Source of the DNA: a virus
Reading direction: 5' to 3' (one strand)
DNA length: 24,641 bases
Virus record (IMG/VR): IMGVR_UViG_3300027668_000095
Span: 1 to 24,641 of that record
Part shown: one piece after another, positions 15,080 through 23,541 of the stretch
Layout: each line of letters opens with the position of its first letter
Position numbering within the stretch: the stretch's first letter is position 1
The notes under the pieces: model-generated
What the model saw: only the letters and a program-made list of their open reading frames with translations
Database searches by the model: none
Told to the model about the DNA's origin: nothing
Program-made: the position numbers and the translations under genes

Positions 15080-16462
15080 ATGTATCAGATTGATAATTCG
15101 ACTGCGGCGACGACGCAGCCGGCGTCGACGGCCGCTGGTACGGCGGGCTTCTTCACAGACGGCAATCCGGCGACGTCCACGCCAGCGACGATCGTTCCAG
15201 CTGAATGGCTGAATGCCGTGATGATGGAATTGGCGAATGTCGTTACTGGCGCCGGACTTACGCTAGCAAAGAACCAGTTTAATCAAGTCCTATCGGCGAT
15301 CAAGCGTCTCGGCCAGACGACGATCGTCTTGACTGACACTGGCTCGGCGAACGCCTACACGGCGACCAATGCGACGCCTCTTGTGGCCGGCACGTGGGTT
15401 GATGGCGTCATCCAACAGATTAAGATCGCCCACGCGAACACTGGCGCGTCCACCTACGCACCGGACGGCTTGCCGGCTATTCCAATCTACGGTCTGGGTC
15501 TGCAACCGCTCCAGGGTGGAGAGCTTGCGCTCAATGGCACAGCGGTTCTGATGCATGCGACGATCGCGGGCATCAACAGCGGCAACCCGATCTGTGTGCT
15601 GATGGAGTGCGCAGGCGGGGCGCAGCCAGTCGCCCCCGCCACGGCCAGCCAGCATGCGGTGCAGTTTGGGCAGGTGCGCAAGCTTCTGACCGCGAACCTG
15701 ACGATTTATGTTGCGACCACGGGCAACGACTCGACAGGCAACGGGACGTCGGGCAATCCGTTCGCGACGATCCAAAAAGCATACAACTACATCCAGCAGA
15801 CCTACGACCTCAACGGGTTCATTGCCACGATTCAGGTGGCGAATGGCACATACACGGCGGGTCTCACCGCCGGTGGTCCGCTTGTCGGCGCGCTGGGCGT
15901 TACGAATTGCGTCGTGCAGGGAAATACAGCGTCGCCTTCTAGAGTAGTCATCAACGTCGGTAACTCGACGAACTGTTTCGCAGCAACGCGCGGCGGCCAG
16001 ATTACCGTTCAAGGCTTCACGGTTCAAGGCGGCACTGCATCTCAGGGGTTCGCTACAAACGACAACCTCAGCCAGATCAACCTTGGCGCCGGGATCGTGT
16101 TTGGCTCAATGCCCAGTGGAGCCCATATCAACGCGAACAGCGGGACCATCAATGCCAATTCGAGTTACTCGATCACGGGCGGGGCGTCAGTTCATGCCAT
16201 TGCATCAAATCCAGGTTCCATCGTCACCATCTCCGGCGGCATCACAGTCACGCTGACCGGCACCCCAGCGTTTTCAACGTCGTTCGTGAATGCTGGCTAT
16301 CTGGGGATGGTTACGGCGTCCAGTGTGACCTTTTCGGGTGCCGCGACAGGGGCTCTATACGGCGTGAGCGTAAACGGCGTTGTCAACAGCGGCGGCGCCG
16401 GTGCGAACTATTTCCCGGGATCTACCGCCGGGACGACGGCAACTGGCGGTCAGTACATCTAA
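15080..16462 (+). CDS. Tail fibre protein with beta-helix domain
   Basis: The protein has 460 residues. Residues 27-80 (DGNPATSTPATIVPAEWLNA, VVTGAGLTL, NQFNQVLSAIKRL) are the N-terminal baseplate-binding segment common in tail fibres of Mu- and P2-like phages. Residues 208-460 begin TIYVATTGNDSTGNGTSGNP and continue with short Val/Gly/Asn-rich repeats (GGQITVQGFTVQGGTA, NANSGTINANSSYSITGG), the signature of a right-handed beta-helix as in pectate-lyase-like spikes. It probably recognises or degrades a surface polysaccharide. AAGGA precedes the ATG. No intramolecular chaperone domain is evident. Confidence 0.85.
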   Translation: MYQIDNSTAATTQPASTAAGTAGFFTDGNPATSTPATIVPAEWLNAVMMELANVVTGAGLTLAKNQFNQVLSAIKRLGQTTIVLTDTGSANAYTATNATPLVAGTWVDGVIQQIKIAHANTGASTYAPDGLPAIPIYGLGLQPLQGGELALNGTAVLMHATIAGINSGNPICVLMECAGGAQPVAPATASQHAVQFGQVRKLLTANLTIYVATTGNDSTGNGTSGNPFATIQKAYNYIQQTYDLNGFIATIQVANGTYTAGLTAGGPLVGALGVTNCVVQGNTASPSRVVINVGNSTNCFAATRGGQITVQGFTVQGGTASQGFATNDNLSQINLGAGIVFGSMPSGAHINANSGTINANSSYSITGGASVHAIASNPGSIVTISGGITVTLTGTPAFSTSFVNAGYLGMVTASSVTFSGAATGALYGVSVNGVVNSGGAGANYFPGSTAGTTATGGQYI

Positions 16463-16466
16463 CATC

Positions 16467-17945
16467 ATGAAAAAGCTTCTGATTTTGCTGTTGGTCGCGC
16501 CGATGCTGGCATTTGCGCAGGTGCCAGCCTCCACGACTCTGGCAACCATTTCGGCGCTGCGTACCAACGTGACTGCGTATCCATCGGTTTATGTGAACGG
16601 GTATTACGCCGTCAGCGATGGCGGCCAAGGGGGGTTCACCTATCAGCCGAACGACACATCAAGCGCAGATAACGGCGGCACGGTGATTGTTGATGCGGCT
16701 GGGCATCGGTTTTATCGTGATGCCAAGCCAACAACGCCGTTCCAGTTCGGTGCCATATGCAACGGGGCGATCAACAACGGCGCAGATGACACTCTCGCAC
16801 TCCAAAACTGGCTCAACTGGATTCAGGGAAGTGGCCAGGCATCGGAGGGAAGCGCGGGCAGTGGGTATATGCCAGCTGGGTATGCCTGCCTAACCAGTTC
16901 GCCATTGAAGGTGTCGACGCCGGTCACCATAAAATTCGATTCCTGGATTTACTATTCTGGCACGAGCGGCAGCGCATTTGTGATCGGATCGGATGCTCCG
17001 ACCAACGGACGAAATTCAGGCTACGACATATCGCTGGCCGGGCTACGTGCGACGAACGGCAATCTTTCCTCGCCAATCAGCATCCAAAATGGGGGCTCGG
17101 TTGGTGTCGAAGTGCGCAACATGCAATTTTCAAAGTTGCATGTCGGTCAATCTATAGCGTTTACCTATGCTGGCATATTTTTTAATAGCACAAACAACGT
17201 ATATACCGGGCAGCATATTCAAGACAACAGCATTCACTTGGGGCAAATAGCCTATAACGGATACGGCATTTTGGCTTTGTCGGCGAGTGCTGCCGATGGG
17301 GCGGTGCAAGCGAACGATATTAGTGTGCAAAATACGTTCGCAAACTTTGCCAATCTTCAATTGGATAGCGCGCTGTATAACTCAAATACGAACAACAACA
17401 TAATTGCAATCGATGCAATGGATTTGCCCGCTCCAGGGGGGCAATCTGGTAACGTGTTCGGGTCATACAACAAGATAACGTTTGGGTATATAAGTGGGAA
17501 ATTGCAGATTTCCGGGGTCGCCTACAACAATCGCATTGAGATTCTTAACCCGCCAAGCACGGGCTCCGGTATCGTGTATAGCACGTCATCCGGAAACAGC
17601 AATTGGGCACAAATGGCAACGCCATCACCCAATGCGCTTCCAACAACAAAAAATATTTCGGCTGGCGTCACATACCAAAACACTTACGGCGTCCCGATTT
17701 TCGTTGCCATCTCCGTTCAACTGCAGGCCACCAGCAACAGCAACCAAGTTGCCGCTGCTTATATTGGTCAACAGGCGAGCACAATGCAAACGGTCAACTA
17801 TGCTCAAGCCTATGCAGCTGCTTCGCCGACGCCGTTTGTGGCCCCCCTGTACATCGTCGTGCCGCCTGGTTGGTATTACTCATTCAACAGTAGCGGCTCG
17901 GGGACGGCTTCGTTCTCGGCTGCTTCGATAACTCAGGCCGGTTGA
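16467..17945 (+). CDS. Secreted beta-helix/tailspike-like protein with Sec signal peptide
   Basis: The start at ATG 16467 gives 492 residues beginning MKKLLILLLVAPMLAFAQ, a textbook Sec signal peptide with predicted cleavage after AFA (17). Residues 48-85 (AVSDGGQGGFTYQPNDTSS, NGGTVIVDAAGHRFYRD) are typical of tailspike head-binding domains, and 94-116 (FGAICNG...GADDTLALQNWL) match the pectate-lyase 3 entry motif. The rest is Asn/Ser-rich and fits a beta-helix. A GTG at 16380 is in frame but lies in the fibre gene. The gene is much more AT-rich than its neighbours; nt 17161-17220 count to 35% GC. Its 3' end overlaps the convergent methyltransferase gene by 13 bp. Virion proteins do not normally carry export signals. 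Confidence 0.82.
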   Translation: MKKLLILLLVAPMLAFAQVPASTTLATISALRTNVTAYPSVYVNGYYAVSDGGQGGFTYQPNDTSSADNGGTVIVDAAGHRFYRDAKPTTPFQFGAICNGAINNGADDTLALQNWLNWIQGSGQASEGSAGSGYMPAGYACLTSSPLKVSTPVTIKFDSWIYYSGTSGSAFVIGSDAPTNGRNSGYDISLAGLRATNGNLSSPISIQNGGSVGVEVRNMQFSKLHVGQSIAFTYAGIFFNSTNNVYTGQHIQDNSIHLGQIAYNGYGILALSASAADGAVQANDISVQNTFANFANLQLDSALYNSNTNNNIIAIDAMDLPAPGGQSGNVFGSYNKITFGYISGKLQISGVAYNNRIEILNPPSTGSGIVYSTSSGNSNWAQMATPSPNALPTTKNISAGVTYQNTYGVPIFVAISVQLQATSNSNQVAAAYIGQQASTMQTVNYAQAYAAASPTPFVAPLYIVVPPGWYYSFNSSGSGTASFSAASITQAG

Positions 17946-18895
17946 TGCTTCCGCAGGCGGCGCAGAAGCGATGCTGCGAAAGAGCCGTGTTTTGATACCT
18001 CAACCTCAACAGGGCTCTCGGTATCAAGTGGTGAACTTTCAAACAGCTCTGCCCTTGTGGACAGCATCAACTGCAACCGCCTCTCATGAAGCTCTTGGTC
18101 GGTGAGATCGTGTTTCCCGCGTTTCAGTCGGACCAGAAACTCTGATGCGGGGCCTGGCACCATCTCTTCTATTACGAAGCTAATATAGCCAAGGTGGTTC
18201 AATTCCAGAATCATTAACGCAAAGCTACTTGGCGTCCAATACCAGCAATGAGAGTCCACATAAGTCTGCGTGCCGGACTCCAGACCCGAAAGATAGGAAA
18301 GGTATTGCTGATGAGCGGAATCCAGTGTCTCTGGCAATGAAAAGTCAGCAGACCTATTGAGTCCCCAGGCTCCTGATCCTCCGCGCCATGTCATGTAGGC
18401 ACGCGCAACGAATATTGTTTCTGGTGAGTGAAGTTTCCGCGCCGAGCGGTGCGCGAGGAGGGCATCGGCCGTAGTAGACAGGGGCTTGAAGAAATCGAAT
18501 ATCTGACGGCAGTCTGGTACAGCGAGCGACAACACAAAATCTTCAGTCGCAAGGTTCGAAACCTGACCAAGAAAGCCAACAATATCGGGAACGTGTTCGA
18601 TTACGTGACTCGCGATCAGGTATTGAAAGCCCTGCGCATTCATTGATAGACATGCTTCGTCGAGAGGTTGTCCGTCCCAGACCACATCAACATGTTCGAT
18701 ATTGGCGATACGGTCACGGACACCTTGATCGGTATGGGTTCGAGCGATATTAAGAAGCCCGTTTTGATCCGTAAAATCCACAACGATCGTGTTCCAGCCG
18801 TGCGATTTTGGGGCGACCGGGTTATAAAAAGGCCCGATTTCTATTCCGAAACGATCTTTACATAATCCTAGCGTAAGAAAGGCAGACCGATCCAT
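17933..18895 (-). CDS. SAM-dependent methyltransferase (class I), moron
   Basis: This 320-residue protein has a Rossmann methyltransferase core: motif I FGIEIGPFYNPV (16-27), an acidic residue at the end of strand 2 (Asp40), and IASHVIEHVPD (94-104), the post-I motif of type-11/23 methyltransferases. The C-terminal half lacks a recognised domain. The closest style is that of methyltransferases from O-antigen and other glycan clusters, so a sugar or lipid-linked glycan substrate is likely but not shown. ATG 18895 has AAGGGG upstream. The gene opposes the late operon and is less GC-rich than the structural genes, both signs of an acquired cargo gene. Confidence 0.8.
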   Translation of the reverse strand: MDRSAFLTLGLCKDRFGIEIGPFYNPVAPKSHGWNTIVVDFTDQNGLLNIARTHTDQGVRDRIANIEHVDVVWDGQPLDEACLSMNAQGFQYLIASHVIEHVPDIVGFLGQVSNLATEDFVLSLAVPDCRQIFDFFKPLSTTADALLAHRSARKLHSPETIFVARAYMTWRGGSGAWGLNRSADFSLPETLDSAHQQYLSYLSGLESGTQTYVDSHCWYWTPSSFALMILELNHLGYISFVIEEMVPGPASEFLVRLKRGKHDLTDQELHERRLQLMLSTRAELFESSPLDTESPVEVEVSKHGSFAASLLRRLRKHQPA

Positions 18896-18988: not shown

Positions 18989-20080
18989 CTATTGCTTATC
19001 TATCATCATCTTCGCAATAGGGGTAAGCGCTTCTCCTTGGATATGCCCCTTGATTTGCAACAGCCATTCGTCAGGGTGGAGGCACGCGTTCATATGACTC
19101 TGCCAGTTTGGCAGCGCCAGGATCGCGTCGTACTGCCTAATGATCAGCACATTAAACTGCGCGGCCGCTTCGTTCATGGCCGACACATAGGCCGCAAGCT
19201 GCGGACGGTCGCCATCACACGTCGGGCCGGGCTCCTCCAGAACAGGTGTCTTGCCTGCTGCCCTGACGGCTGCAACCCACTGCGCGAGGTACTGGCGATA
19301 GTCGGCAAGCGATTCTCCGCCGAGCATGTCATTCACGCCGTGGTTGTCGATGACGATGGATGCGGCTGACGTCTTGATCCGATCGGCAAACGGCGCCCCG
19401 TTGCCGTCCATGCCGTCCAGCTCGTTCTTGAGGCTGCTCGACGTTCCGCCGGTGGCGTGATTGGTAATGATGATCGCGTCATCGTTCAGCGTGGCCCGCA
19501 ACAGCGTTTGAGATTGGTCAGTCTCGCTCTGCTGAGCACGGCCCATCAGTGAAGTCGCACCCATCATCGCATCGTCGCCGAAAACATCGATGGTGACGAC
19601 CCTCTGCGGCTTGGGTGCTGGCTGTGGTTCCGGCGCGGGCGCAGGGGCCGGGGTCGGTGCAGGCGATGGCGCCACAACCGGGATGGGCGCCGGGCTTGGT
19701 GCAATCGGCGCAGGGGTCGGTGCTGCAACCGGGGTTGTCGGCGCGCTTTGAGCCTGCTGCGCATCCTCGCCACCACCGCAAGCCGACAGCGCAAACGCTA
19801 CGGCTGCGAGGGCGAATCCAAGTCGATAGTTGCGCCAGCCTCGCGCATGCGATTCAGCACGCGCTCGATGGTCTCGGCATCCAGTTCCAGTCGGGCCATG
19901 GCGAAGAACAGCAGTTGAGCGCTCAGCTTGCGCTCGTCGCCAGTGTACTTGCGCCATTGCCGCGCGTCGGAGACTCCGAACAACCCGGCCATCTGCGAAT
20001 TCGATAGATTCAGTTCCGACTTCAGCTTTGCCAGCGCTTCGGCTGACGGTGGTGAATAGAGCATCGTGACGAAATGTCAT
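18989..20080 (-). CDS. SGNH/GDSL-hydrolase-like lipoprotein, start uncertain
   Basis: The ORF from ATG 20080 has 363 codons and an AAAGGA 7 nt upstream, but residues 1-80 are Arg-rich and overlap the HTH gene in another frame. A lipoprotein signal runs from about Arg83 to lipobox LSAC with Cys101 (RLGFALAAVAFALSAC). A Pro/Ala linker spans 114-159. The SGNH core follows: VVTIDVFGDDAMMG (161-174), NHATGGTSSSLKNEL (207-221), VIDNHGVND (243-251) and CLHPDEW (333-339). Block I has GDD where GDS holds the nucleophile, and no Asp lies three residues before the His of block V, so catalysis is doubtful. No ATG, GTG or TTG occurs between the ATG at 19957 and the signal peptide. SGNH enzymes deacylate glycans and lipids. 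Confidence 0.72.
   Translation of the reverse strand: MTFRHDALFTTVSRSAGKAEVGTESIEFADGRVVRSLRRAAMAQVHWRRAQAERSTAVLRHGPTGTGCRDHRARAESHARGWRNYRLGFALAAVAFALSACGGGEDAQQAQSAPTTPVAAPTPAPIAPSPAPIPVVAPSPAPTPAPAPAPEPQPAPKPQRVVTIDVFGDDAMMGATSLMGRAQQSETDQSQTLLRATLNDDAIIITNHATGGTSSSLKNELDGMDGNGAPFADRIKTSAASIVIDNHGVNDMLGGESLADYRQYLAQWVAAVRAAGKTPVLEEPGPTCDGDRPQLAAYVSAMNEAAAQFNVLIIRQYDAILALPNWQSHMNACLHPDEWLLQIKGHIQGEALTPIAKMMIDKQ
19798..20064 (-). CDS. Small HTH DNA-binding protein
   Basis: The 88-residue ORF contains LKSELNLSNSQMAGLFGVSDARQWRKYTG (residues 14-42), a helix-turn-helix of the XRE/Cro type with the usual LS.SQMA.LFGVS spacing, followed by LSAQLLFFAMARLELDAETI. Similar small proteins occur beside lysis genes in beta-proteobacterial phages. 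It is encoded within the 5' part of the SGNH ORF in a different frame. ATG 20064 lacks a good Shine-Dalgarno sequence of its own; AAAGGA sits 23 nt upstream, before ATG 20080. The promoter at 20135-20163 with a perfect inverted repeat is directed at this gene, suggesting autoregulation. Confidence 0.72.
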   Translation of the reverse strand: MLYSPPSAEALAKLKSELNLSNSQMAGLFGVSDARQWRKYTGDERKLSAQLLFFAMARLELDAETIERVLNRMREAGATIDLDSPSQP

Positions 20081-22075: not shown

Positions 22076-22537
22076 ATGAAGAAGATCATGCTGCTTGCGG
22101 CAGGCATTGCCGCGTCCATCGTCCTCGCTGCCTGTGCCTCGGCGCCGCAGCTCACCTTCCAGCAACAGGTCTCGATCGCCTGTGGCGCGGCGCAAGGCGA
22201 GATCACCATCCTGAAGGCGGACAACGTCTTTACTGGCGGGGCGGCCAGTACGCTGGCCAATGACGTGGAGCCGGCCATCGCGAAGGTGTGCAGCGCCGGC
22301 TCGACGGTGACGGACGCCAACCTGCAGTCGATCGTCAACGCGACCCTGCCGCTGATCAAGTCGTTGGTGGCGGCGTCCTCGCTGCCGCAGGACAAGAAGA
22401 ACGCGGCGTCGGCCGCGATCGATACAGGGGTGCTTGCGTTCAATATCGCGATCAATCTGGCGCCGTCCGGAGGTACTGCATCCACTCCACCTGCTGCGGA
22501 CACCGCAGCACCTGACTCTGGTGTGGCAGCCAAATGA
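22076..22537 (+). CDS. Phage lipoprotein
   Basis: The 153-residue product begins MKKIMLLAAGIAASIVLAAC, a clear lipoprotein signal with lipobox LAAC and acylated Cys20. Mature residues include FQQQVSIACGAAQGEITIL, a helix-rich centre with two more Cys, NATLPLIKSLVAASSLPQDK, and a Pro/Ala/Thr-rich tail (TASTPPAADTAAPDSG). Position +2 after Cys is Ser, so outer-membrane sorting is expected. It may serve as an outer-membrane lysis factor (o-spanin-like) but has no partner-overlap typical of Rz1. GAAGGA precedes ATG 22076; the longer in-frame ORF from 21776 is rejected. It is ATGA-coupled to the phospholipase. Confidence 0.78.
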   Translation: MKKIMLLAAGIAASIVLAACASAPQLTFQQQVSIACGAAQGEITILKADNVFTGGAASTLANDVEPAIAKVCSAGSTVTDANLQSIVNATLPLIKSLVAASSLPQDKKNAASAAIDTGVLAFNIAINLAPSGGTASTPPAADTAAPDSGVAAK

Positions 22538-23340
22538 CCAAGCCGATCCGCGTAGCGCTCAGCGGGTCGGGCTTCCGGTTGCCGGCGCATCTCGGTGCGC
22601 TTCGTGCCATCCATGACGCCGGTTTCGATGTGGTCGAGCTGGCCGGCACGTCCGGCGGCTCGATCGTGGCTGCCCTGTATGCCGCCGGCATGACCCTCGA
22701 CGAGATGTACGACCTGTGCATGTCGTTGGACTGGTCGCCGATGATGCGTTTCTCGCCGTGGTCGCTGCTGACCAAGCAAGCGCTGTGCAATGGCGATGCG
22801 CTGCTCGAGCTGCTGACGAAGCACACCGAAGGCAAGACGTTTGCAGCGCTTGATGTCGACCTGAAGGTGATTGCGTCTGACCTGGCCAGCGAAGCGGAAT
22901 TCCAGTTCAGCCGAGACAAGACGCCTGATGTGCCGATCGCGCTTGCCGCACGTGCGTCGGCTTCAATCCCGATCGTGTTCGCGCCGGTGGAGCACAACGG
23001 AGCGGTATTGGTGGACGGCGGCTGCACGGACAACATGCCGGCCAGTGACCTGACCGTCGACGAGGTGCCGCGGCTTGGCATTTATCTGGTATCGACAGAT
23101 TCGCCGTTACTGCCTGGGCGCCGGGGGCTGGCGACGCTCGCGCCACGGATCATCGATCTGTTGCTGGCGTCGAACGAGGAATCGCATGTGGCGCTCGATA
23201 CCCACAACGGCGCTCAGATCGTCCCGATCCAGACCGGCTACGCATCCAGTTTTGACCGAAAGATGCCAGCGGAAACTCGGCTGCGCCTGTTCAAGGATGG
23301 GTATTCAGCGACCGCGGCGGCGCTGGAAAATCTGCACTGA
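22534..23340 (+). CDS. Patatin-like phospholipase
   Basis: This 268-residue protein has the patatin fold motifs in order: a Gly-rich oxyanion loop ALSGSGFRLPAHLGAL (residues 8-23), the nucleophile elbow GTSGGS with Ser40 (38-43), and the Asp of the dyad in LVDGGCTDNMP (159-169), Asp161. Between them is DLKVIASDL and ARASASIPIVFAP, also typical. Patatins hydrolyse acyl chains from phospholipids. There is no signal peptide, so it is predicted cytosolic. It is translationally coupled (ATGA) to the lipoprotein upstream and is the last prophage gene before the tRNA. Possible roles are membrane disruption at lysis, a moron effector, or defence; family membership is clear, function in the phage is inference. 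Confidence 0.9.
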   Translation: MTKPIRVALSGSGFRLPAHLGALRAIHDAGFDVVELAGTSGGSIVAALYAAGMTLDEMYDLCMSLDWSPMMRFSPWSLLTKQALCNGDALLELLTKHTEGKTFAALDVDLKVIASDLASEAEFQFSRDKTPDVPIALAARASASIPIVFAPVEHNGAVLVDGGCTDNMPASDLTVDEVPRLGIYLVSTDSPLLPGRRGLATLAPRIIDLLLASNEESHVALDTHNGAQIVPIQTGYASSFDRKMPAETRLRLFKDGYSATAAALENLH

Positions 23341-23433: not shown

Positions 23434-23441
23434 GTATTACT

Positions 23442-23517
23442 TGGCTCCCCGACCTGGGCTCGAACCAGGGACCTACGGATTAACAGTCCGGCGCTCTACC
23501 GACTGAGCTATCGGGGA
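23442..23517 (-). tRNA. tRNA-Asn (anticodon GTT)
   Basis: The 76-nt gene has a perfect acceptor stem (TCCCCGA with TCGGGGA), a D arm with AGCTCAGTCGGTAGAGC, anticodon loop CTGTTAAT with GTT, the T arm with GGTTCGAGCCC, and an encoded GCCA 3' end. Its 3' end faces the prophage, the common orientation for tRNA attachment sites, but the whole tRNA and its terminator are intact on this side. Confidence 0.97.
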
Positions 23518-23541
23518 ATCGCTGCAACAGCGAAGAAATGA

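Follow-up and report, generated by a model that had tools for sequence, protein, structure and literature searches.

Why should a tailspike-like protein begin with a Sec signal peptide, when tail fibers and spikes are taken to be made and assembled in the cytoplasm? The question is raised by a 24,641-nucleotide stretch of DNA (here called the window) which is the whole of the IMG/VR viral contig IMGVR_UViG_3300027668_000095 and encodes a Mu-like baseplate cluster of the contractile-tail type (Baseplate_J, Mu Gp48). Its plus-strand ORF at positions 16467 to 17945 encodes a product of 492 residues, designated P0001, with the N-terminus MKKLLILLLVAPMLAFAQ. The start of this gene and the gene ahead of it are as follows.

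15080 to 16462, + strand: ordinary primary tail fiber gene, no signal peptide (phrog_1858 tail fiber, E = 2.1e-17; 44 related contigs)
16467 to 16517, + strand: predicted Sec signal peptide of 17 residues, MKKLLILLLVAPMLAFA, with predicted cleavage at AFA-Q, before Q (inspection and home-made rule)

Start and signal peptide of P0001

As the original prediction had stated, the gene is located directly behind the fiber gene: its ATG lies 4 nt downstream of the TAA (16460 to 16462) that ends the latter. No clear Shine-Dalgarno sequence is present between the fiber gene and this ATG, and a consensus scan found no promoter-like site between the two genes. Because of the coupling geometry with the upstream stop, the start codon is placed at the signal rather than downstream of it. 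The N-terminus displays the n-, h-, and c-regions of an exported protein right at the translation start, namely, a basic n-region (KK), a hydrophobic core free of charged residues, and the cleavage site. Signal peptides were called by inspection and a home-made rule, and P0001 passed both. Since the rule was passed by 71 of the 730 ORFs of at least 200 residues in the fetched loci (approximately 10%), a single match is weak evidence on its own; the case beyond chance is made by the recurring architecture and by the cysteine counts described below.

Domain organization of the tailspike body

Behind the signal, P0001 consists of three predicted parts.

16527 to 16853, + strand: tailspike linker domain, residues 21 to 129 (phrog_4250 EPS depolymerase, E = 3.9e-11, and three other PHROG families)
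16740 to 17561, + strand: β-helix, about residues 92 to 365, putative receptor- or polysaccharide-binding body (42 to 45% best-segment identity to six viral contigs; AlphaFold2 strands)
17652 to 17942, + strand: C-terminal domain, about residues 396 to 492 (aligned with the CAU_YEP3 protein; inside the Pseudomonas typographi match)

The PHROG matches of the linker domain are to EPS depolymerases and tail fibers, and depolymerases of Erwinia phages share 37 to 44% identity with parts of it. In two homologous spikes, the linker is followed by the β-helix and then by the C-terminal domain, as in P0001. The protein XPQ57408.1 of Yersinia phage CAU_YEP3 (631 residues, from the tailspike region) matches residues 15 to 471 (26%), and the spike of a P. 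typographi prophage matches residues 25 to 492 (34%). Unlike P0001, both possess an ordinary N-terminal region without a signal peptide, which is long in the CAU_YEP3 protein and of phage type in the prophage spike. Likewise, the N-termini are long and signal-less in the ORFs of the six viral contigs with a P0001-like helix. The single relative that a scan of genome_contigs gave has no signal peptide. Since the homologous spikes share the body behind such N-termini, the signal peptide appears to have taken the place of the virion-binding region. Judged by these alignments, P0001 is a real tailspike body: the linker, right-handed β-helix, and C-terminal domain are all recognizable from the PHROG matches and the homologous spikes, whereas the N-terminal domain for binding to the virion head or tail is replaced by the 17-residue signal. 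To polysaccharide depolymerases, the sequence of P0001 shows a family resemblance only.

Searches of Pfam and NCBIfam gave no family for P0001. The AlphaFold2 model is β-rich but of low confidence (mean pLDDT of 53.5), and the PDB shapes nearest to it in Foldseek are mostly phage tailspikes, none of them at an E value of ≤0.001; the modeling result agrees with a tailspike and lends it weak support. The β-helix assigned originally is upheld by the PHROG matches, by the homology to the CAU_YEP3 protein, and, weakly, by the model. The GC content is 52.2% in the P0001 gene and 59.5% in the window. The low GC content noticed earlier at positions 17161 to 17220 was confirmed, its value being 36.7% rather than 35%. 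The drop in GC content and the modular relatives are consistent with a separate acquisition of the body, as had been proposed.

Recurrence of signal-bearing fibers

Fibers and spikes with signal peptides are a recurring architecture, not an isolated case. In related prophages that share the primary fiber of the window, a similar signal precedes an unrelated body behind this fiber (L017:9450 and L034:9243); the L017 protein has 10 of its first 20 residues in common with P0001, and a signal of the same kind stands on yet another body in gp19 of phage BcepC6B. Signal-bearing fibers are also present in loci L026 and L046 and in the cultured Burkholderia phages Bcep781 (gp49), Bcep43 (gp48), BcepC6B (gp19), Bm1 (CDS_0099), Bcep1, BcepNY3, and BgManors32. 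A single scan with three N-termini as queries yielded 39 viral contigs, most of them with a signal ending in A-x-A followed by the motif QF.PGQ.LTAAQLN; further signal-bearing cases carry other, swapped bodies. The same mature N-terminus occurs in L095, for which no start compatible with a signal peptide could be located. Among the automatically collected proteins, L237 passed the signal rule as a false positive, and the starts of L109 and L117 are doubtful. A profile of signal and motif gave no match in 369 genomes of the class of P. typographi, the query being too short for this result to carry meaning. Phage JC1, for which virion proteomics exists, was considered as a test of signal-bearing fibers and dropped, as its fibers have no signal peptide.

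Two variants of the architecture were observed. One phage (L072) encodes two different signal-bearing fibers (L072:5986 and L072:11260). Five proteins (L105, L111, L114, L115, and L148) combine a signal with a tip-type C-terminus within just 103 to 126 residues, as mini-tips without a shaft; those of L105, L111, and L114 (103 to 111 residues) are barely more than signal and tip.

The closest annotated counterparts are the Naesvirus tail fibers Bcep781 gp49, Bcep43 gp48, Bcep1 gp51, and BcepNY3 gp50, in which, as in P0001, a signal is followed by a tail fiber body; Bcep781 gp49 also shares the tailspike-type β-helix start (FGATGNG). The Naesvirus fibers keep F.PGQ.LTAAQLN after the signal, whereas in P0001 the signal is followed directly by the linker domain. 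BcepC6B gp19 resembles P0001 in its signal peptide, its annotation as a tail fiber, and its slot right behind an ordinary fiber (5 nt behind the tail fiber/spike gene gp18), but differs in body, tip, and cysteines. The signal itself is not new, since the GenBank records of Bcep781 and Bcep43 note a "possible signal peptide domain"; no paper describing or explaining the class was found in a literature mostly outside subscription journals, which is limited evidence of novelty. Other phage-encoded proteins are exported, as predicted for P0001, such as lambda Lom, which goes to the outer membrane (PMC12309495), and T4 Spackle, described in PMC7677548 as periplasmic and as causing superinfection exclusion; neither is a fiber or spike body.

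Cysteine parity as evidence for signal function

Exported proteins prefer an even number of cysteines in E. coli and, less strongly, in Burkholderia, for which an even-cysteine filter has already been used to find DsbA substrates (PMC7678975). In the mature parts of 62 nonredundant signal-bearing fibers, the number of cysteines was even and nonzero in 54 and odd in 8, with none lacking cysteine (p = 8.5e-10); 14 of the 62 had been found via a tip that itself contains a cysteine pair, and without these the ratio was 40 to 8. The signal-less ORFs used for comparison comprised 179 even, 204 odd, and 81 cysteine-free cases (Fisher test against the signal-bearing set, 9e-10). The preference was lost when cysteines inside the signal were counted as well (37 even, 25 odd at full length). 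Specifically, 19 proteins have an odd number of cysteines within the signal, and the mature count was even in 18 of these (p = 4e-5). Such a pattern would be predicted only with cleavage of the signal, and we therefore infer cleavage and oxidation from cysteine parity; at the class level, these counts strongly support export and signal removal.

Tip domains that also occur in ordinary fibers gave a concordant picture. For the LPT[C/A]...VPVYCNG tip, the presence of the first cysteine tracked the signal (14 to 3 with signal versus 1 to 6 without; p = 0.004 in an automatic table that scored L113 as lacking this residue, which it has on reading). For the GDWDV...GFIGARR tip, parity was 15:3 with a signal and 10:17 without (p = 0.003). 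Cysteine content as such did not differ between signal-bearing and other fiber-like ORFs; only parity and pairing did.

P0001 itself has two cysteines and contributes a single pair to statistics that hold for the class.

16758 to 16760, + strand: Cys98 (FGAIC), one of only two cysteines in P0001; Gly in aligned signal-less relatives
16887 to 16889, + strand: Cys141 (PAGYAC), proposed disulfide partner of Cys98 (sequence comparison)

At the position of Cys98, a glycine is present in the CAU_YEP3 protein and in the viral-contig relatives, and the P. typographi spike has no cysteine at either position. The signal-bearing L046 spike P0004, by comparison, has cysteines at both (FGAVC and PAGNC). 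A disulfide between Cys98 and Cys141 is proposed. The signal features, the homologous spikes, the recurrence, and the cysteine statistics together bear out the Sec signal originally assigned to this tailspike-like protein, and the exported, oxidized signature in the cysteines of its relatives supports the accompanying argument that an exported spike is unlikely to enter cytoplasmic virion assembly in unprocessed form.

Proposed role of P0001

In our favored reading, to which we assign a probability of roughly 0.48, P0001 is an exported, oxidized accessory tailspike that acts outside the cytoplasm, most likely in trans on the host envelope or receptor. A tailspike body would have been placed behind a Sec signal with replacement of its virion-binding domain. 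Judged from the gene layout, it would be made together with the tail genes by coupled reinitiation behind the fiber gene, and probably expressed late. P0001 would then pass through Sec, lose its signal, be oxidized by the disulfide machinery of the host, and fold outside the cytoplasm, presumably as an accessory to the ordinary fiber. Either in the periplasm or after release via the host's own secretion or lysis, it might mask or trim the surface structure that serves the phage family as receptor, which could protect the infected cell from sibling phages or stop progeny from binding to debris. An accessory role is supported by the ordinary fibers that accompany the signal-bearing genes; copies outside tail operons and tip-only members also speak for the favored reading. 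An ordinary fiber is encoded, adjacent to the signal-bearing gene or elsewhere, in the window and in BcepC6B (gp18), Bcep781 (gp31), BgManors32 (gp50), L080, L065, and L088, and Bm1 CDS_0099 lies approximately 30 kb away from the tail fiber assembly and lysis genes. The idea that the signal-bearing gene is the sole fiber of some phages was rejected, because an ordinary fiber was found wherever annotation or profile searches were made.

The next reading, which we regard as possible but rather unlikely, is that the spike is exported, oxidized, and trimerized in the periplasm and joins virions at or after lysis as a real receptor-binding protein. Of the signal-bearing genes examined, about half overlap the upstream stop by 4 nt, several of the overlapped genes being baseplate or tail genes; together with the fiber slot and the fiber-type motif retained after the signal in many relatives, these overlaps are no less compatible with a virion part than with a role in trans. 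The swapping of tips is typical of receptor-binding proteins, and the two signal-bearing genes of L072 and the signal-less occurrence of QF.PGQ.LTAAQLN in L095 point in the same direction. Against virion attachment, an ordinary fiber is nearly always encoded next to the signal-bearing gene, copies away from tail genes and tip-only proteins exist, and P0001 has lost the motif together with any recognizable anchor. Extended to a general statement, namely, that in many tailed phages a second receptor-binding fiber travels through Sec and the disulfide machinery of the host and joins the particles as oxidized trimers only at or after lysis, part of the tail thus being assembled outside the cytoplasm, the idea seems to us slightly more doubtful still.

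Lysogenic conversion, put forward originally for this gene, would have P0001 expressed from the prophage to alter the surface of the lysogen. It fits the low GC content shared by the P0001 gene and its methyltransferase-like neighbor, an SGNH-type esterase gene close by on the opposite strand, and a slot that can hold an acyltransferase-like membrane protein (recognized by eye behind or beside the fiber genes of L018, L020, and L088). However, the P0001 gene directly follows tail genes, beginning 4 nt behind the fiber gene, and a consensus scan gave no promoter-like site in front of it; a moron gene would be expected to have its own promoter and terminator and to be transcribed in the lysogen. 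Furthermore, the signal and fiber architecture is present in Bcep1, Bcep43, Bcep781, and BcepNY3, the first three of which appear in PMC3765740 as phages with an obligately or putatively lytic life style. Because the gene follows tail genes and this group keeps such a gene, we consider lysogenic conversion improbable as a general answer. Least of all do we expect the hydrophobic stretch to be unused and P0001 to be an ordinary cytoplasmic virion spike: chance hydrophobic N-termini do occur at the rate given above, but the cysteine parity depends on signal removal and cysteine pairing tracks the signal within shared tip domains. Our order of preference is a role in trans on the envelope or receptor, then virion attachment at or after lysis, and then lysogenic conversion.

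A widespread class defined by signal and cysteine pairs would mean either that the tail is partly built outside the cytoplasm or that secreted receptor-binding modules are used on the host surface. With either option, host range predictions and depolymerase screens in which all fiber-like genes are taken for virion protein genes would err on this class.

Neighboring genes

Downstream of P0001, a methyltransferase-like gene (17933 to 18895, − strand; weak Pfam matches; GC content of 51%) is convergent with the P0001 gene and overlaps its end. It is followed by a GDSL/SGNH esterase gene (18989 to 20080, − strand; Pfam Lipase_GDSL_2, phrog_8011), whose product has a cysteine-containing hydrophobic segment and then a proline-rich stretch; similar lipoprotein-like minus-strand ORFs are located behind the fiber region of the related prophages L017, L033, L034, L041, L044, and L046. 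The esterase gene is probably a surface modification moron. A patatin-like phospholipase gene (22534 to 23340, + strand) lies downstream of the lysis genes. Finally, the 79 bases at positions 23441 to 23519 share 88.8% identity with a tRNA-Asn gene of Sinorhizobium phage Phosso and could represent a host tRNA at the attachment site.
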